The notes beneath the pieces were generated by a model, which ran no database searches, was not told the origin of the DNA, and saw nothing but the letters and a program-made list of their open reading frames with translations. Source: a virus. Taken from it: a DNA stretch of 23,592 nt. Position 1 is the first letter of the stretch, and each line of letters begins with the position of its first letter. The translations under genes and the position numbers were made by a program. Location of the stretch: IMG/VR virus record IMGVR_UViG_3300046506_000298, positions 1 to 23,592 of that record. One strand, 5' to 3'. Positions 3,143-13,292 of the stretch are shown piece after piece.

Positions 3143-3146
3143 AGGA

Positions 3147-3359
3147 TCAGTCTCGCAGGCGATCCGGCTCGTCGGACCACGACGTGAGGACCCGCTGTTC
3201 CTCCTCGTCGACGAGGGTGACCCGGGCGCCGGAGACGCTGCCGTGCTCGCCGATCCAGCGGCGGAACTTGTCGTCGGCCGTCGCGCGCTTCGACCACCAG
3301 CCGTGCATGACGGGCCGGCCGCCGGTCGACAGGGTGAGGTGATACCGCTGGGCGTTCAC
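3147..3359 (-). CDS. Small hypothetical protein (conserved-looking Streptomyces type)
   Basis: A 70-residue, beta-rich protein: NAQRYHLTLSTGGRPVMHGW opens with a strand-turn-strand. A mixed middle (FRRWIGEHGSVSGARVTLVD) follows, then an acidic tail. There are no Cys residues or membrane segment. The GTG start at 3359 is followed by AAC, and TAGGCT lies 6 bases upstream with no ribosome site, so the mRNA should be leaderless. It is divergent from the DUF6233 gene at 3389, only 29 bases away, and the two promoters interlock. A hairpin follows the stop. The function is unknown. Confidence 0.75.
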   Translation of the reverse strand: MNAQRYHLTLSTGGRPVMHGWWSKRATADDKFRRWIGEHGSVSGARVTLVDEEEQRVLTSWSDEPDRLRD

Positions 3360-3394
3360 GGGATCAGCCTACGCGTAATATCGAACACGTGAAC
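3354..3394. promoter_or_regulatory. Interlocked divergent leaderless promoters
   Basis: Plus direction: GTTCAC (3354-3359), 16 bases, TAATAT (3376-3381), 7 bases, GTG 3389. Minus direction: GTTCAC (3394-3389), 17 bases, TAGGCT (3371-3366), 6 bases, GTG 3359. Each -35 hexamer is the complement of the opposite gene's first two codons, GTG AAC. The whole control region is therefore 41 bases and overlaps both coding starts. Use of these hexamers in vivo is inferred. Confidence 0.55.
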
Positions 3395-3724
3395 GACCAG
3401 CCCGCCTCCCGCCTCGACCAGCTTCTCTTCCTCAAGCGCGTCCAGGAAGCCGACCTCGAGCGCACCCGCAGGTGGATCGCAGCAGAGGAACGGCGGCAGG
3501 CCGAGCAGCGACGCGGCGAACAGACCCGGCCGCCCGAACCCGACTGGCTCATCGAGCAAGGCCTCGACGGGCGGCAGCCGGTGTACGTGCACGTCGGCGG
3601 CTGCCACATGGCAGGCAAGCGCAGCCGCGGCGTCGAGCGGGACCAGGCGCTGCGGGCACTCGCCGAAGGGGTCGCCGCCTGCACGCACTGCCGGCCCAAC
3701 TCGGAGCTGGGATACCTCGAATAG
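3389..3724 (+). CDS. DUF6233-like protein
   Basis: A 111-residue protein matching the Streptomyces DUF6233 pattern as I know it. It has a basic/acidic helical N-terminus with 'ADLERTRRWIAAEERRQAE' (residues 21-39), a Pro-rich PPEPDWLIEQGL segment, then PVYVHVGGCHMAGKRSRGV. It ends with ACTHCRPNSELGYLE. Cys and His in GGCHMAG and CTHC could form a zinc site. The family is abundant in Streptomyces, often in several copies in accessory regions, and has no established function. The GTG start at 3389 follows the TAATAT -10 by 7 bases (leaderless). The collagen-like gene lies 38 bases downstream and has its own promoter-like TACACT. Confidence 0.82.
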   Translation: MNDQPASRLDQLLFLKRVQEADLERTRRWIAAEERRQAEQRRGEQTRPPEPDWLIEQGLDGRQPVYVHVGGCHMAGKRSRGVERDQALRALAEGVAACTHCRPNSELGYLE

Positions 3725-3730
3725 CTGCCC

Positions 3731-3759
3731 TACACTTCGGCTGTCCAGACCAAGGGGGG
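3731..3759 (+). promoter_or_regulatory. -10 box TACACT and strong ribosome site AAGGGGGG of the collagen-like gene
   Basis: TACACT (3731-3736) fits TANNNT. AAGGGGGG (3752-3759) lies 3 bases before GTG 3763 and decides that start. Unlike most plus-strand genes nearby, this gene has a leader and a Shine-Dalgarno sequence. Confidence 0.55.
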
Positions 3760-3762
3760 CAT

Positions 3763-4218
3763 GTGAACAGCGAAACCGAACCGCCGCGAAGACCGCGGCG
3801 TCACCTCATAGTCGGCGGCGTCCTCGTCGCCGTCCTGGCTGCCCAGTCGGCGGCGCTCATCGCCCAGCAGATGCAGATCAGCAACCTGAAAACCCAGCGC
3901 AGCACACCCGGCCCGGCGGGTCCATCCGGGGCGCCCGGCCCTGCGGGGCTGCCCGGTCTCCGCGGCCTTCCCGGGCCTGCAGGCAAAGACGGCAAGGACG
4001 GAAAGAACACCGTCGTCACCGTTCAGGGCAGCAACACTCAGACGCAGCTCACCGAGACCGAGGCCCGCGCCCACTGCGAGACTGTCGCCGACCAGGCCTT
4101 CCCCGGCAACAGCAACACCGGAGACACGACAGCCGACAGCCTCACAAACGCCTACTCCGCCACGATGCACGAGAAGACGCTCCAGCAGTGCATGGGCGAG
4201 CAGGGCTATCCGCAGTAG
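3763..4218 (+). CDS. Membrane-anchored collagen-like protein
   Basis: A 151-residue protein. A positively charged start (RRPRRH) precedes one membrane helix (about residues 15-35). Then come a short linker and a Gly-X-Y segment at residues 50-82 (GPAGPSGAPGPAGLPGLRGL onward to GKDGKDGKN). A polar C-terminal domain of about 68 residues has two Cys (105 and 143) that may form a disulfide. The topology suggests cytoplasmic N-terminus and exported trimeric stalk. Collagen-like proteins in bacteria and phages form rod-like triple helices for adhesion or structure; the role here is unknown. The frame is also open far upstream through the DUF6233 gene, but the GTG at 3763 with AAGGGGGG is the real start. 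A second, longer protein of the same plan is encoded at 12639-13292. Confidence 0.8.
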   Translation: MNSETEPPRRPRRHLIVGGVLVAVLAAQSAALIAQQMQISNLKTQRSTPGPAGPSGAPGPAGLPGLRGLPGPAGKDGKDGKNTVVTVQGSNTQTQLTETEARAHCETVADQAFPGNSNTGDTTADSLTNAYSATMHEKTLQQCMGEQGYPQ

Positions 4219-4239: not shown

Positions 4240-5157
4240 CTAGGCGCTCCGCGGCTTCCGCCCCGTCGCCTTCTTGGCTGTCTTCTTCGCCGTGGCCTTC
4301 TTGGCGGGCTGCTTCTTCGCCGTCTTCTTGGCCGTGGGCTTATTCGGCATCTCGTGGATGGTGGCGTCCTCGCCGCGTGCGGTCCGGGCCTTGGCGACAG
4401 ACTCTTGGAGGGCGGCCATCAGGTCCACGACCTCTCCGGCCGGGGCCTCCTGCTCGGGCGTCTCCGGGGGTTCGTGGCCTTCCCGTTTCGCCTCGATGAG
4501 TTGTTCCACCGCCTCCGTGTAGTGGTCGGTGAACTCTTCGCCTTCGAGGTCGTCGCGGGTCAGGCGGTCGATGAGGAGCTCCGCCTCGGCGATCTCCTCA
4601 TCCGTGAGTTCCACCGCGTCGGGTGCCAGCTCGGACGGGTCGCGGATCTCGTCATCCCAGCGCATCGCGTGCAACACGATCACGCCGTCCCGGACCCGGA
4701 GCAGGCCGAGGCGCTCGCGGCCGGACCAGGCGAACTTCGCCACCGCCACCTTGCTGCTCCGCACGAGGGCCTGGGCCAAGAGCTTGTACGGCTTTGCCGC
4801 TACCTGGCCATCCGGCTGGAGGTAATAGCCGTCCCCCACCCGGATCGGGTCGATACTCTCCGCGGGCATGAACGCGACCAGCTCGATCGCCTTCGCCGTC
4901 GGCAGCGGCATCTGCTGCAGCTCCTCGTCAAGCACCGGGATCACGGTGTCCTTGGTCAGCTCATAGCCCTTGCCGATCTCCCCCTGCGTGACCTCGCGGT
5001 TCTCGAGCTCGCAGTACTTCCGGACGCGGACGCGGGCCATGTCGTCGAGGTGCACCTGGTGGAAGCGGACGCTGTGGTCCTCGGTGGCACTCACGACGTG
5101 AATCGGGACGGTGACCAGGCCGAACGAGATGGCGCCTGACCAGATGGTTCGGGGCAT
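4240..5157 (-). CDS. ku: Ku DNA end-binding protein (non-homologous end joining)
   Basis: A 305-residue bacterial Ku. The N-terminus is the classic 'MPRTIWSGAISFGLVTVPIH' followed by a beta-barrel core (for example 'CELENREVTQGEIGKGYEL' and 'SIDPIRVGDGYYLQPDG'). The C-terminus is a Lys/Ala-rich tail of repeated AKK units (about residues 276-305), which in bacterial Ku proteins increases DNA affinity. Ku forms a homodimeric ring on double-strand ends and recruits the ligase LigD; no LigD gene is in the window. The start at 5157 is fixed by GGAGG 7 bases upstream and by the conserved MPRTIW start; the longer frame is not coding. Streptomyces chromosomes often carry several ku copies, and some actinophages encode Ku too, so host or phage origin is open. 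A TAGGCT at 5194-5189 may be its -10. Confidence 0.95.
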   Translation of the reverse strand: MPRTIWSGAISFGLVTVPIHVVSATEDHSVRFHQVHLDDMARVRVRKYCELENREVTQGEIGKGYELTKDTVIPVLDEELQQMPLPTAKAIELVAFMPAESIDPIRVGDGYYLQPDGQVAAKPYKLLAQALVRSSKVAVAKFAWSGRERLGLLRVRDGVIVLHAMRWDDEIRDPSELAPDAVELTDEEIAEAELLIDRLTRDDLEGEEFTDHYTEAVEQLIEAKREGHEPPETPEQEAPAGEVVDLMAALQESVAKARTARGEDATIHEMPNKPTAKKTAKKQPAKKATAKKTAKKATGRKPRSA

Positions 5158-5236
5158 GGCAGACCTCCGCGACAGCCCCGAGAAGGCCAGCCTACGAGTC
5201 TGCACAGAAAAAGGCATACACGACAAAAAGCCCGAA

Positions 5237-5250
5237 TAGGGTGCCCCGGT
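5237..5250 (+). repeat. Promoter-like 14-bp repeat, copy 1 (upstream of the membrane gene)
   Basis: TAGGGTGCCCCGGT occurs here and again at 6398-6411 in the same orientation. TAGGGT fits a -10 box, and the plus-strand membrane protein gene starts 52 bases downstream. The shared downstream bases suggest a duplicated promoter or a protein-binding site. Confidence 0.55.
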
Positions 5251-5301
5251 CTGGGAACTTCGTCCAGGGAAAGCCATCCACCGCATCGAACGGAGCGCGC
5301 C

Positions 5302-6265: not shown

Positions 6266-6296
6266 GCGCCCGCCCCCACGTCTCAGGGGCGGGCGC
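6266..6296 (+). terminator. Hairpin terminator, 11-bp perfect GC stem
   Basis: Arms 6266-6276 and 6286-6296 pair without mismatch around a 9-base loop, 7 bases after the stop of the membrane peptide gene. Confidence 0.85.
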
Positions 6297-6397
6297 AAGG
6301 CTGGACGCTGGTTCATGAGGCCAGCAACGGCAACCGATCGGACGGCCCCAGGAGACCGCACTGCCGCAGGCCCGCCCGGCTATTCACCGACAGGATC

Positions 6398-6411: not shown

Positions 6412-6471
6412 TTCCCGCGAGCAGACGAGCGTGGCCTACAGGGAGTGTGGCATGAGGGGCTGACGGGCGGG

Positions 6472-6485
6472 GCTTAGTTCTAAGC
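6472..6485 (-). repeat. Palindrome overlapping the stop codon of the GIY-YIG gene
   Basis: GCTTAG and CTAAGC are separated by TT, and the TAG stop codon lies within it. It could be a weak terminator or the edge of the recombinase/GIY-YIG unit. Confidence 0.35.
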
Positions 6486-8006
6486 TGCTCGCTTTGCCTG
6501 CAGGTTTCGCTCCAACTCTTCGAGCGCCCGCAAGCCCCTACCTCCCGGCATCCAGGTTCGCTTCGACCGTTCGATCGCAGCTACGAGCAGATCGCCGTCC
6601 GCGTCGTCGAACAGCCCGGCCGCACAGAAGCATGCCGTGGCTGATCGCATGGCCGGGATGTGGATCCCGGACCAGTCTGCATACTCCGGCACGGCAGGAG
6701 CATGGAAGGCTCCGGCGTTCCGCTGAAGGAGCTTGCCGATCTCGCTGTCGGGGTCTTGATGATCCGCGCCGAGAACCTTCGCGATGACCTGGGCGGCGAG
6801 CCCCGCGGGGAGCCCGAGCTCAGCATCAGCGATGGCCAAGCGATCCTTCCCGTAGACGGTGTCGAGGGCTTTCGGGTCGATCTCCTGCAGGAGGTTGCAC
6901 ATCTCGCTCGTGGCCTGACGATCCTTTGCGACCTTGACCAGCCTGTCGCGCAAGTCGGGCGTGAGCAGCTCGGGTACGACGAACCCTGGGATGTGGGCAG
7001 CTCCAAGCGCGAGGGTGAAGGATGCGATGTCGGTGTCCCACCGGTCGTAGCGACGACCCAGGTAGCCGGGAGTCTCCGCGTCCTGGAAGAGCTTGACCGC
7101 AGCTCGCGTGTCGGAGTCATCCGACACCCATTCGGCGAATGCCGCGTCGCGACTGTCGATGCCGGCAGCGTCGGCGAGCGCGACCCACGGGTCAAGGCTC
7201 CGTGCTGCCCAAGGGATCAGGCTGAGGTAGCGCGCCATGTGGGATGGGTCCGTGAAGGCGACTTCGTAGGCGTCGTCGCCTCGCCCGAAGATCCCGTCGC
7301 CGTAGCGCTCGCCATCGTCGATGGCAGAGAAACTGCGGCTGAACGTGCGCATGAAGTCCTCTAGGCCGTCCTTGCAGCGTTGCCTCAACCGCCGGATCTC
7401 CTGGCGTTCACGCGCCTCCGGGGAGTCTTCCGCTGCGGTCACACCTACGCCGGGTATCAGGAGGTACCCGCCCGAAGCGTGGTGTGCCAGCCAGTCCTCG
7501 GCCTCACGGTAGGACTGGTAGGTCTCCCAGACCGCCTCGGGGATGCGGCGTGCCGGGATGTCGCTGGGCGGTATAGGGCCGCCCGTCGCGGCCCGGATTT
7601 GGTCAGCGACCAGCCGCCAGGACGCCTGTCGCCATGACAGATCCATCGCCTTCTCTTCGGCTTCCCGGCGCTTCGCCTCTTCGCGGCTGGCTTTGCGTCG
7701 CTTGGCGTTCCCGACTGCGTTGCTTGCCACGTTGAGCAAGTCGCCGCTGGTGGCGTGCAACGCGATCTCTTCCCGCTCGGCCAGATCAAGTTCGGCGGTG
7801 GGGACTTGTTCGCGTATGGGTGTGATCTCGGGGCGCCGACCTTCGACCGCGAGCTCTTCGATCCAACCCTTGACGAGTGGGGCGGGGGCAGTGAGATGGC
7901 CGGCAAGTCTGACTTCGATCGGCTTGGTCGTCTGGCCGACGTAACGCACCGCCTCGGTACGCGGGTCGATGAGCGCGTAGATCGTGCCCGTGGAGGCATC
8001 TGTCAC
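6480..8006 (-). CDS. GIY-YIG nuclease-domain protein with a long uncharacterised C-terminal region
   Basis: The protein has 508 residues. Residues 6-95 form a GIY-YIG domain: GTIYAL (7-12, GIY strand), RYVGQT (21-26, YIG strand), Arg33 in EVRLAGHL, an acidic helix AEREEIAL (76-83) with the likely catalytic Glu, and Asn92 in LLN. These are the expected catalytic-core positions, so metal-dependent single-strand cleavage is plausible. A basic/acidic coiled stretch (about 100-125) follows, then nearly 380 residues, largely helical, that I do not recognise; this part may bind DNA or a partner. The GTG start overlaps the stop of the serine recombinase gene (GTGA), so the two are translated as a pair. 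I know no standard mobile element with this exact gene pair. The fold call is strong; the biological role is inference. Confidence 0.82.
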   Translation of the reverse strand: MTDASTGTIYALIDPRTEAVRYVGQTTKPIEVRLAGHLTAPAPLVKGWIEELAVEGRRPEITPIREQVPTAELDLAEREEIALHATSGDLLNVASNAVGNAKRRKASREEAKRREAEEKAMDLSWRQASWRLVADQIRAATGGPIPPSDIPARRIPEAVWETYQSYREAEDWLAHHASGGYLLIPGVGVTAAEDSPEARERQEIRRLRQRCKDGLEDFMRTFSRSFSAIDDGERYGDGIFGRGDDAYEVAFTDPSHMARYLSLIPWAARSLDPWVALADAAGIDSRDAAFAEWVSDDSDTRAAVKLFQDAETPGYLGRRYDRWDTDIASFTLALGAAHIPGFVVPELLTPDLRDRLVKVAKDRQATSEMCNLLQEIDPKALDTVYGKDRLAIADAELGLPAGLAAQVIAKVLGADHQDPDSEIGKLLQRNAGAFHAPAVPEYADWSGIHIPAMRSATACFCAAGLFDDADGDLLVAAIERSKRTWMPGGRGLRALEELERNLQAKRAA

Positions 8007-8656
8007 GGTGCGATCTCCTTCCGGCTTTCGACGGCGACCAGGGACGCGCGTCCGGCAGCCAGCTCCGGGACGTACTTGTAGATAGTCATGCGACTGACGC
8101 CGAGGAGCTTCGCAATCGAGGTTATGGACGCTTCGGGGTCGGCGAGCATGGCACGAGCGTGCCGGACCTGCTCTTCCGTCATGGCCGGAGGCCGGCCGAG
8201 CCGTTCCCCGCGAGCCCTCGCCGCGGCGAGACCTTCATGGGTTCCCTGGACGATGAGCTCACGGATGAACTCGGCGAGCGCGGCGAAGACGTGGAAGACG
8301 AGTCGGCCGCCGGGCGTGGTCGTGTCGAGGGACTCATGCAGGGAGCGGAAGCCGATGCCTTCTTCGCGGAGACTGCCGACGATGCCGATGAGGTCTTTGA
8401 TGGAGCGCCCAAGGCGGTCGAGTGACGGCACGATGAGGGTGTCGTTCGGGCGGAGGTAGTCGAGGGCCTTTTGGAGCTCCTCGCGTTCAGCGTTCTTGCC
8501 GGACTTCTTGTCGGAGAAGATCCGTTGGCAGCCGGCCGCTTCGAGGGCGGCTATCTGACGGTCGAGTAGCTGCCCCTTGGTGCTGACGCGGGCGTAGCCG
8601 ACGAGGGCCCCTCCCCCGCCGACGGGCGCGAGGAGGTCTGGGGAGTCGGGTTCCAT
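8003..8656 (-). CDS. Serine recombinase, resolvase/invertase type
   Basis: A 217-residue site-specific recombinase. The catalytic domain starts at VGYARVSTKGQ with nucleophile Ser25 (after Arg23), then DRQIAALEAAGCQ. The conserved LDRLGRS carries Arg81 and Arg84. A long E-helix leads to GERLGRPP and a C-terminal Hin-like helix-turn-helix (ITSIAKLLGVSRMTIYKYVP, 178-197). This is the length of resolvases and invertases, not of large phage integrases. It cuts and rejoins DNA through a phosphoserine link at paired inverted half-sites. ATG 8656 is preferred to a GTG at 8716 because the extra 20 residues look non-coding; GACAAT lies 6 bases before ATG and suggests a leaderless mRNA. Repeats at 8665-8810 are candidate binding sites. 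The stop overlaps the GIY-YIG start. Confidence 0.92.
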   Translation of the reverse strand: MEPDSPDLLAPVGGGGALVGYARVSTKGQLLDRQIAALEAAGCQRIFSDKKSGKNAEREELQKALDYLRPNDTLIVPSLDRLGRSIKDLIGIVGSLREEGIGFRSLHESLDTTTPGGRLVFHVFAALAEFIRELIVQGTHEGLAAARARGERLGRPPAMTEEQVRHARAMLADPEASITSIAKLLGVSRMTIYKYVPELAAGRASLVAVESRKEIAP

Positions 8657-8662
8657 GACTCC

Positions 8663-8730
8663 ATTGTCTAACAAAGGGTCACCCCCAGTACATGGACATT
8701 GAGACTTCCTGTACACCCTTTTTGGACAAT
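8663..8730. repeat. Long imperfect inverted repeat at the recombinase promoter
   Basis: Left arm 8663-8679 (ATTGTCTAACAAAGGGT) and right arm 8715-8730 (ACCCTTTTTGGACAAT) are imperfect inverted copies. An inner imperfect pair GTACATGGA/TTCCTGTAC lies at 8688-8696/8706-8714. TGTCYA half-sites on opposite strands at 8665 and 8698 span 34 bp. Position and half-site form fit recombinase binding sites. Confidence 0.6.
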
Positions 8731-8764
8731 CGAGCGGGCGGGTATGCCCGTTTCGTCACTCGGC

Positions 8765-8800
8765 TGTCCAACTAGCCAACAATCGATCGATTGTTGGACG
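8765..8800. promoter_or_regulatory. Candidate recombinase core site with a 22-bp perfect palindrome
   Basis: A 22-bp perfect palindrome fills 8776-8797 (half-site CCAACAATCGA) with central dinucleotide AT at 8786-8787. Outer GTCCAAC (8766-8772) and GTTGGAC (8793-8799) add a second inverted pair. Resolvases cut at the centre of a symmetric site, so this is the best candidate crossover site; an operator is the alternative. Confidence 0.5.
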
Positions 8801-8839
8801 GTTGCCGACAGTTAGGCACCCCTCGCTTGACGCCGTGGC

Positions 8840-9151: not shown

Positions 9152-9487
9152 ATGACGACCCGCCCCCGCTTCCATCCCGACGACGGGCGCCCCCGATACG
9201 TGGGTCCCGCCACCGTCGTGCTTCCTGACGGCCGCGAGGTGCCCGTCACCGCATCCCTCGTGCTGCGCTTCGACCCCAACCGCACAGACAACCGGGAGTC
9301 CGACCGCGACAGCACGTGGGCCGGCAGCGTCACGCTGTCGGATCCATCGGGCGACGTCGATCTCTTTGACGCGGCGCCCGGGATCCTGCGCATGCCGGAC
9401 GGCCGTGAGAGCGAGTTCATGGCAACGAGCGGACGGAGCGAAGTCGGTGTCGCAGGGCTCGGCCCAGCCCCGTTCGTGGAGCCTTAG
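9152..9487 (+). CDS. Small hypothetical beta-rich protein, paralogue of the previous gene
   Basis: A 111-residue protein. The N-terminal part has YVGPATVVLPDGREVPVTAS, followed by a polar insertion with Asn, Arg and Asp. It then has the three blocks shared with the gene at 8852 (TWAGSVTLSDPSG, GILRMPDGRESEF, GVAGLGPAPF). The repeated 'LPDGRE/MPDGRE' turns suggest a small beta-sandwich or barrel. It has its own TACCCT -10 box 6 bases upstream of the ATG. No catalytic residues are recognisable and the function is unknown. Small stem-loops lie after the stop. Confidence 0.75.
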   Translation: MTTRPRFHPDDGRPRYVGPATVVLPDGREVPVTASLVLRFDPNRTDNRESDRDSTWAGSVTLSDPSGDVDLFDAAPGILRMPDGRESEFMATSGRSEVGVAGLGPAPFVEP

Positions 9488-9869
9488 CCGCACGCGACGG
9501 AGAGCCGTTGCCCGAGAGCTCTCCCAACCCGAACTTCGGGATACAGGGGAACCCTCCCGGGCCTCTCGGCGACCGACTTCCTGGCGACCACGCACGCCTG
9601 CGACTGCCGGGGTGTTGCTCGCTATCACCACCAGGAACCTGACGCCCAGCCTACGGCGAACTGCCGCCAATCTCTTGTCGGTTGACAGGGAGCCTGGCCA
9701 GGCCCCAGATGCGCGACCCCGCAAGCGTCCGTTCGGATCCTGCGGCGGGCCTTGTTCGTTGAAGGTTCACATTTCGTTACGGTTTCATCACCGTGCCCCC
9801 ACAGCTCTTACAGAATCCTCATCTGCACCGTTACGGTCATCCCTCCACGAACCATCCCTGGGGGGACAC
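9488..9869 (+). other. 382-base intergenic region with short inverted and direct repeats
   Basis: No supported gene lies here. Downstream of the 9487 stop are two compact palindromes, GAGAGCTCTC (9514-9523) and CCCGAACTTCGGG (9528-9540), possibly a terminator. Near the MmpS-like gene, CGTTACGGT occurs twice (9775-9783 and 9829-9837), the second as the inverted repeat ACCGT-T-ACGGT (9827-9837). A TTGACA at 9682-9687 has no good -10 partner. The 9770-9840 part probably holds the promoter and an operator of the next gene. Confidence 0.5.
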
Positions 9870-10490
9870 ATGTCGCAGAATCAGCCGCCAGTCGGGCCTC
9901 CGAGCTGGATCCAGGCACCGCCGCCGCCCCCGATGCCGTCGCAGCCCACCGGCCGCCCGAAGTGGGCGCGTAAGAAGGTCGTCATCCCGGCCGCCCTGGT
10001 CATCCTGTTCATCGGCGTCGGCATCGGACAGTCCGGCGACGACCAGAAGACGACCGCCAGCGACAAGCCGGCGCCGCGCGTTACCGTCACCGAAACCGCG
10101 AAGAGCAACGCCAAGGCTGCGCCTGCCCCGACGGTGACCGTGACGAAGACCGCGAAGCCTGCCGCCGTGAAGGCGACGCCGAAGAAGGCGGAACCGGCCG
10201 CGCCCGCCGACAAGGTCGTGTTCAAGGTGTGGGGCAGCGCGTCGGCCGGCGTGGACATCACCTACGGCAGCGACACTGACAACCTGCAGGGCCGCGGGCT
10301 GCCGATGACGAAGACCCTCACCCTGAAAGACGACGCGATGTACTACGACGTCACCGCGCAGTTGCAGGGCGGCGGCGACATCCACTGCTCCGTAACCGTG
10401 GACGGGCAGACGAAGACGGGGCACGCCGCCGGCGGATACAACATCTGCTCCGCGCAGCTCAGCGACGACTTCCTCGGCGGCTGGAGCTAG
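9870..10490 (+). CDS. MmpS-like membrane-anchored exported protein
   Basis: A 206-residue protein. The Pro-rich cytoplasmic N-terminus (APPPPPMPSQP) precedes a basic patch and a single membrane helix (about residues 37-53, VVIPAALVILFIGVGIG). Next is a Lys/Ala/Pro/Thr linker with a repeated TVTxTAK motif, then a beta-domain of about 90 residues (VVFKVWGSASAGVDITYGSD ... MYYDVTAQLQGGGDIHC). It ends NICSAQLSDDFLGGWS; Cys173 and Cys193 may form a disulfide. The beta-domain resembles actinobacterial MmpS-type accessory proteins; that name is moderately supported and no MmpL partner is present. ATG 9870 has GGGGGG at 9860-9865 as its ribosome site; the open frame upstream of it is not coding. A long terminator follows. 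Confidence 0.75.
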   Translation: MSQNQPPVGPPSWIQAPPPPPMPSQPTGRPKWARKKVVIPAALVILFIGVGIGQSGDDQKTTASDKPAPRVTVTETAKSNAKAAPAPTVTVTKTAKPAAVKATPKKAEPAAPADKVVFKVWGSASAGVDITYGSDTDNLQGRGLPMTKTLTLKDDAMYYDVTAQLQGGGDIHCSVTVDGQTKTGHAAGGYNICSAQLSDDFLGGWS

Positions 10491-10509
10491 AACCCCCCTA
10501 CATGACCGA

Positions 10510-12638: not shown

Positions 12639-13292
12639 CTATATGTACTGGCGGCGGCTGGGGTCGAGGCCCATGCCGAGCAGGCCGCCGCTCTTCTTCT
12701 GCGACGGTTGCGGCGCCCCGTCCTTGCGGCAGACGAGAGCGTCCGGATCGTAGGCGGGGGCCTGGAGACTGTACCCGTCCGGGCAGGTCTGGCCGTCCCT
12801 CCCGTCCTTGCCGTCGACTCCATCCTTGCCGTCGGCGCCAGCTGGCCCCTGAGGTCCGGTGGAGCCGACCGGCCCAGGTTCGCCTTGAGTGCCTTGCTGT
12901 CCGGCCGCACCGTTGGTACCCGCGGCGCCCGTCTGGCCCACGCCGTTGCTGCCGGCAATGCCGTTCTTGCCTGGCGCGCCAGAGGGTCCGATCGGGCCGA
13001 CGGGACCCGTCGAGCCGATGGGTCCGGGCAGCCCCGGATCGCCCTTCGGCCCTTGGGGTCCGACGACACTCTTGCCAGCTTCACCGCGGGGTCCGGCCAC
13101 AGGCTTCCCGCCTAGAGCGCGTACCTGCTGCGAGAGCGCGGCGATGTCTGAGTCCTTCGCGTGCAGGTCGTGCGCCATGCTCTGGATAGTGATGACGATC
13201 CACGCCAGCACCAGAAGCCCGACCGCGGCAGCCATCGCGTACCCGACGTCGACGCGACGGTGCACCTTCGCCCGGGAGCTGTGAGCCCTCAC
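12639..13292 (-). CDS. Membrane-anchored collagen-like phage protein
   Basis: A 217-residue protein. A basic N-terminus and one membrane helix (about 17-36) are followed by a short coiled coil (about 40-60, DSDIAALSQQVRAL), which probably sets the trimer register. A Gly-X-Y region of about 100 residues follows (67-168), with units such as GPKGDPGLPGPIGSTGPVGP, ending in GKDGRDGQ. The C-terminal part has Cys170 and Cys188 and a basic tail. Collagen repeats are frequent in phage tail and surface proteins. Here the anchor and the place just after the holin suggest a role at the membrane during lysis or superinfection control. The GTG start overlaps the preceding stop (GTGA). It shares its plan with the protein encoded at 3763. 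Confidence 0.85.
   Translation of the reverse strand: MRAHSSRAKVHRRVDVGYAMAAAVGLLVLAWIVITIQSMAHDLHAKDSDIAALSQQVRALGGKPVAGPRGEAGKSVVGPQGPKGDPGLPGPIGSTGPVGPIGPSGAPGKNGIAGSNGVGQTGAAGTNGAAGQQGTQGEPGPVGSTGPQGPAGADGKDGVDGKDGRDGQTCPDGYSLQAPAYDPDALVCRKDGAPQPSQKKSGGLLGMGLDPSRRQYI

Follow-up and report, generated by a model that had tools for sequence, protein, structure and literature searches.

A phage resolvase gene overlapped by a GIY-YIG nuclease-like gene in an exchangeable second slot

Homing is normally directed at one sequence, and coupling by start/stop overlap is unusual among free-standing homing genes. The homing endonucleases of phages include GIY-YIG, HNH and endonuclease VII folds (PMC10448857, PMC6083498, PMC2988022), homing enzymes with an endonuclease VII motif being already described (PMC6083498), and nuclease genes are known to lie at the exchange boundaries of phages generally (PMC10448857). 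Here, we describe a phage locus in which a gene for a GIY-YIG protein directly follows a recombinase gene. The window, that is, the whole stretch of 23,592 bases that was analysed, is the record of a Streptomyces virus (phage) with tail and lysis genes toward its right side. A sequence-only reading had proposed that a serine recombinase gene overlaps by GTGA the gene of a 508-residue GIY-YIG protein, and this pair is confirmed (Table 1). The overlap suggests that the two genes are translationally coupled. Both are under purifying selection (dN/dS ~0.13 for each, window versus locus L003) and, since the same overlap also recurs in independent phages, the pair is not a product of chance.

Table 1. 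Positions of the module and associated features (window coordinates unless a locus is named).
Feature	Position	Strand	Remarks
Homology block res-resolvase-GIY-YIG	6444..8802	-	conserved between phages; flanks mostly differ
Candidate res site	8666..8799	-	three-part half-site array (TGTnCAnnAA-like), just upstream of resolvase start
res site I, presumed crossover site (GTCCAACAATCGATCGATTGTTGG..)	8772..8799	-	left edge of inter-phage homology block
res site II	8706..8728	-	two direct-orientation half-sites, 13 bp apart
res site III	8666..8697	-	half-sites 32 bp apart, adjoining ATG
Serine resolvase gene	8003..8656	-	217 aa from ATG; PF00239 catalytic domain and C-terminal HTH_7
GTGA stop/start overlap of resolvase and GIY-YIG genes	8003..8006	-	GTG is the GIY-YIG start
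GIY-YIG nuclease-like gene	6480..8006	-	508 aa; domain ~5-95, all-helical C-terminal part ~97-508
GC-rich inverted repeat, possible terminator	6266..6297	.	downstream of GIY-YIG gene; read by eye
G596 prophage att core (43 bp) with tyrosine integrase	L086 8392-9808 and L042 15901-15943		at start of TetR-like gene

The region of the possible terminator is also conserved in L003 and L004. Elsewhere, the window encodes another GIY-YIG-like protein, which is a fusion with a GntR-type HTH (1064-1711, + strand; PF00392, phrog_23624 and, weakly, phrog_681), a Ku protein with a lysine-rich tail (4240-5286, - strand), similar Ku genes being common on Streptomyces plasmids, and a collagen-like Gly-X-Y repeat protein adjoining the lysis region (12639-13292, - strand), which is present in L003 and L004 too.

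What kind of recombinase is it? The protein carries PF00239 at residues 39-171 (1.2e-42) and a C-terminal HTH_7 at 174-218 (2.1e-11). The array next to its gene consists of six half-sites with successive spacings of 72, 13, 17 and 32 bp, those of site I forming an inverted pair around GATCGATC. This array also contains an in-frame GTG (8716), which is unlikely as the resolvase start. Some half-sites are degenerate in the window's own phage group, and the spacings are common to this group, to a second phage group and to circular plasmids with the same resolvase alone. With a catalytic domain followed by a C-terminal HTH, and a multi-subsite res array adjoining the gene, the recombinase is, as judged from its sequence, a small serine resolvase of plasmid type. 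There is one res array per record, the complete prophage of genome G596 included, which fits multimer resolution and not an invertible switch. A phase switch had been among the roles first suggested for the pair, and the recombinase belongs to phrog_125, a family that PHROGs names DNA invertase; nevertheless, we consider DNA inversion extremely unlikely, since the single array has no inverted second site, even in the complete prophage, and shows the accessory-site layout of a resolution site. The Hin/Gin arrangement, in which an invertible segment lies between two inverted crossover sites, was not found.

Relatives of the resolvase that are 77-86% identical over most of their length occur alone on Streptomyces plasmids, and the plasmids inspected are all circular (8/8), several of them with ParA and MobF. 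A relative is present in 31 of 296 Streptomyces genomes and, among the loci inspected, only that of the G596 prophage is followed by the GIY-YIG gene. Regarding the partners of the recombinase, what would have refuted the initial proposal of a two-gene unit is half the case: outside phages the recombinase is normally alone, and its usual coupled partner in phages is a nuclease, which is not always of the GIY-YIG type. On one circular plasmid, a second short recombinase-family gene overlaps the resolvase by 4 bases (L052, 5747-6202, + strand).

The tandem of a serine recombinase and a nuclease, together with the sharp edges of the homology block, also recalls a mobile element of IS607 type with a GIY-YIG nuclease in the place of TnpB, a comparison that the sequence-only reading had drawn. 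We regard such an element as very unlikely. The recombinase has the domain order of a resolvase, with the HTH at the C-terminus and a res array, its score with the IS607 transposase model NF033518 is 24.2 bits against a cut-off of 110 bits, and the genomes compared showed neither an insertion site nor an empty site for the pair itself. Besides, the borders of the G596 prophage, 43-bp exact att repeats at 6343391 and 6403900, belong to a different integrase, and the module lies ~4 kb inside attR. This separate tyrosine integrase, which adjoins attL and was missed by the PF00589 genome search, led us to reject a phage integration module as well. PF13614, which served as a test for ParA and thus for a plasmid-prophage, had no match in the virus records, most of which are fragments.

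The GIY-YIG domain of the window protein was missed by Pfam, PHROGs, NCBIfam and PADLOC, and PF01541 matches weakly in two of seven family members. In the AlphaFold2 model of the 508-aa protein (pLDDT 81.3, from a 7-row alignment), residues 6-95 match the folds of I-TevI (1ln0, Z 10.2 over 84 residues), PD-T4-3 (Z 9.5) and UvrC (1yd6, Z 7.2), and the GIY-YIG assignment is therefore right. The expected key residues are all there, as initially read (Y10, Y22, G24, R33, E80 and N92); Y10, Y22, G24, E80 and N92 are invariant among 11 relatives, and R33 and H37 are lost in L032 only. The protein is presumably an active nuclease. Also borne out is the large unrecognised remainder, a helical C-terminal part of ~400 aa that has no match in family libraries. 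Modelled alone, this part reaches a pLDDT of 83.7, and almost only helices follow the N-terminal domain; structure matches over residues 145-321 are helical and of low Z, and a sequence search of solved structures returned chance matches only.

How constant is the partnership? We collected 12 GIY-YIG relatives, the window included; a genome scan with a 4-row profile gave 0 matches and a 7-row profile worked. Members are rare, occurring in 3 of 393 Streptomyces genomes, in 2 of the 395 of a second draw and in 2 of 251 Streptosporangiaceae. Of the 12, 10 are coupled to a recombinase, mostly by an ATGA or GTGA overlap, and the partner is sometimes another resolvase or a tyrosine recombinase. Seven genes lie behind a window-type resolvase (window, L003, L004, L006, L007, L031 and L037), one behind another resolvase, from which an 88-aa gene separates it (L020), and two behind tyrosine recombinases (L005 and L008), L005 being a phage-plasmid with ParA/ParB, capsid and terminase genes. 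The two relatives with no recombinase directly upstream, L032 and L039, have no intact GIY-YIG domain either, the former having lost the motif Arg/His and the latter being truncated with stops. The GIY-YIG tree places the tyrosine-paired members inside the serine-paired clade (99/98), and phage backbones with 82-86% identical capsids carry the serine version with the GIY-YIG gene in G007 and G010 and the tyrosine version with it in the NBC_01369 plasmid. These relationships indicate that the class of the recombinase has switched while the GIY-YIG gene stayed coupled. The resolvase tree leans towards two independent serine pairings, a single origin appearing in 1% of its bootstrap trees; as such an origin is not rejected by the AU test (p 0.35), we do not claim them.

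Just upstream of the L008 tyrosine recombinase, at roughly the position of res in the serine version, there is a 36-bp inverted repeat (4844-4879; 15-bp arms, 6-bp spacer), possibly a lox/dif-like crossover site. In L005 (the NBC_01369 phage-plasmid), the tyrosine recombinase and GIY-YIG genes have a third, overlapping gene behind them (9427-10503, + strand; weak LacI-type HTH only). A gene for a TROVE/Ro60-like protein, with a vWA-like ILVDxSxSM motif read by eye, occurs close to the module in L003 (3110-4900, + strand) and L006 (7822-9501, + strand), upstream in one phage and downstream in the other.

The nuclease is exchanged as well. We compared the second slot behind three resolvase lineages that are 35-50% identical to each other, Ser-A (window-type), Ser-B (that of L139) and Ser-C (that of L140), counting loci on viral contigs, some of which are closely related (e.g. 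L195 and L196), so that a binomial figure for these counts is indicative only. Behind Ser-A (18 phage loci), where the slot genes mostly keep the 4-base ATGA/GTGA stop/start overlap, there are seven GIY-YIG genes, seven endonuclease VII genes and one zinc-ribbon/GIY-YIG gene (L127, phrog_681); the slot of L130 holds a tyrosine-recombinase-like gene (3145-3789) and that of L125 an unknown gene. These endonucleases VII were assigned by PF02945 (L121, L124, L126, L131), by similarity (L118, L120) or, because the resolvase frame of L123 is broken, by position only in that locus. Ser-C (25 loci) is followed by endonuclease VII in five cases, HNH in five and zinc-ribbon GIY-YIG in four, and Ser-B (14 loci) by endonuclease VII in three, two of them non-overlapping, so that 11 loci in each of these two lineages have a slot with no recognised nuclease. 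HTH regulators occur among the non-nuclease genes behind phage resolvases (L184, L195, L196). A relative of the L008 tyrosine recombinase, L225, has endonuclease VII directly behind it with a GTGA overlap.

Two comparisons illustrate the swap at the DNA level. Between L121 and L207, homology (88% identity) begins 8 nt past the junction, with none found upstream, and the window and L121 show the converse pattern, with homology upstream of the junction and none past it. Read from such alignments, the same endonuclease VII gene stands behind unrelated resolvases, with DNA homology from the junction on. Because both recombinase and nuclease are swapped while the tight two-gene layout stays, the arrangement can be described as a combinatorial recombinase-nuclease operon.

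The homology block begins at res site I and ends ~36 bp beyond the stop codon of the GIY-YIG gene, and its flanks are unrelated in most phage pairs compared; with such a discrete block, and a GIY-YIG protein nearly always coupled to a recombinase, the two genes are indeed the recurring unit that had been suspected. In L003 and L004 (G009 and G010), the flanks are unrelated, the res-resolvase part is ~80-90% identical and the GIY-YIG gene is 97-100% identical, in a tract that starts near the end of the resolvase gene. The dS of 0.03 in the GIY-YIG gene versus 0.51 in the resolvase, together with the unrelated flanks, points to a recent gene-centred exchange, and the nuclease gene would hence move at its own scale inside the module. 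Lone resolvase alleles exist as well. These breakpoints at the junction raise the question of whether the slot is simply an insertion hot spot, an expressed and tolerated site that gathers selfish nuclease genes with no functional tie to recombination. Non-nuclease genes in the slot fit this explanation, as does the general position of phage nuclease genes at exchange boundaries (PMC10448857). We nonetheless find it unlikely, because coupled genes of whatever kind nearly all retain the stop/start overlap, tblastn matches to nucleases within the 5-kb loci fall only at or just after the slot, and the GIY-YIG gene is still coupled after the recombinase class switched.

A functional tie could take the form of DNA processing. 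Endonuclease VII, which occurs in the slot as PF02945 proteins, is a branched-DNA nuclease. The nuclease may be the processing partner of the recombinase, trimming or resolving branched, concatemeric or Holliday-type DNA from phage replication while the recombinase monomerises genomes, and any structure-selective nuclease could then fill the slot; some GIY-YIG nucleases (SLX1) are also branched-DNA nucleases (PMC9071465). That serine and tyrosine recombinases alike show the coupling suggests a DNA-processing need independent of the recombination chemistry. However, plain HNH and zinc-ribbon GIY-YIG proteins, neither of which is to our knowledge a junction resolvase, occupy the same slot, many loci lack a nuclease, and plasmids achieve resolution with none. 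We therefore judge a processing role rather unlikely.

Tentatively, we favour a reading in which the resolvase monomerises phage genomes and the nuclease cuts the DNA of competitors or DNA that lacks the module. The architecture, the conserved coupling, the res array, the reciprocal swapping and the gene-centred exchange are read in the DNA itself, and the proposal is built on them. The module would have three parts: a res site, a serine resolvase of plasmid type that acts there, and a co-translated nuclease whose place as second gene is open to exchange. The resolvase would most likely act at res to resolve the circular phage genome when it forms multimers, and the nuclease (GIY-YIG, endonuclease VII, HNH or zinc-ribbon/GIY-YIG), possibly in physical cooperation with its partner, would most likely cut competing or module-less phages and plasmids, favouring the spread of the module itself or excluding competitors, with homing-like exchange taking place at the resolvase/nuclease junction. 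A single conserved homing site is unlikely, since the partner recombinase differs in class. Also against this proposal are the start/stop overlap, noted above as unusual for free-standing homing genes, the location of the G596 module within an integrated prophage, and the Ser-C and Ser-B slots with no recognised nuclease (11/25 and 11/14).

In a broader and more doubtful interpretation, actinobacterial phages would possess a general two-component system of nuclease-coupled site-specific recombination, built with several nuclease folds and either recombinase chemistry, where the co-translated nuclease might, for example, destroy unresolved or competing DNA or DNA lacking the recombination site. 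The parts are of known kinds; it is their recurrent and reciprocal pairing that appears as the new, testable point, and no report of a recombinase-nuclease operon as such was found in a non-exhaustive search of the open-access literature. A functional coupling would mean that phages assembled this partnership of a recombinase and a nuclease repeatedly, each time from unrelated enzymes. The TnpA/TnpB logic of insertion sequences would then have a counterpart with ordinary protein nucleases, and many orphan phage genes for endonuclease VII, HNH and GIY-YIG proteins would gain a role. The clean natural swaps lend themselves to experiments, and the res/resolvase pair, with its defined site layout, is ready for use.

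How does the module compare with described systems? With the Tn3/gamma-delta and plasmid multimer resolvases, the window resolvase shares the catalytic domain, the C-terminal HTH and the gene-adjacent multi-site array; it would differ from them in being co-translated with a nuclease when in phages. IS607 and IS200/IS605 (TnpA+TnpB) offer the same idea of one nuclease type combined with recombinases of different chemistry, but the module has neither TnpB nor a guide RNA, its recombinase is a resolvase and not a transposase, and four nuclease kinds are exchanged. PD-T4-3, a GIY-YIG restriction enzyme of modified phage DNA, has the GIY-YIG fold in common with the window protein (the Z of 9.5 given above) and a different C-terminal part; the window protein has no PADLOC match, and we know of no recombinase partner of PD-T4-3. 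Finally, the slot nucleases share catalytic folds and, apparently, gene-centred exchange between phages with the homing endonucleases I-TevI, Seg and F-CphI; they are set apart from these by the long helical C-terminal part of the GIY-YIG protein, which belongs to no known family, and by their place as the second gene of a recombinase operon with a conserved 4-base overlap.
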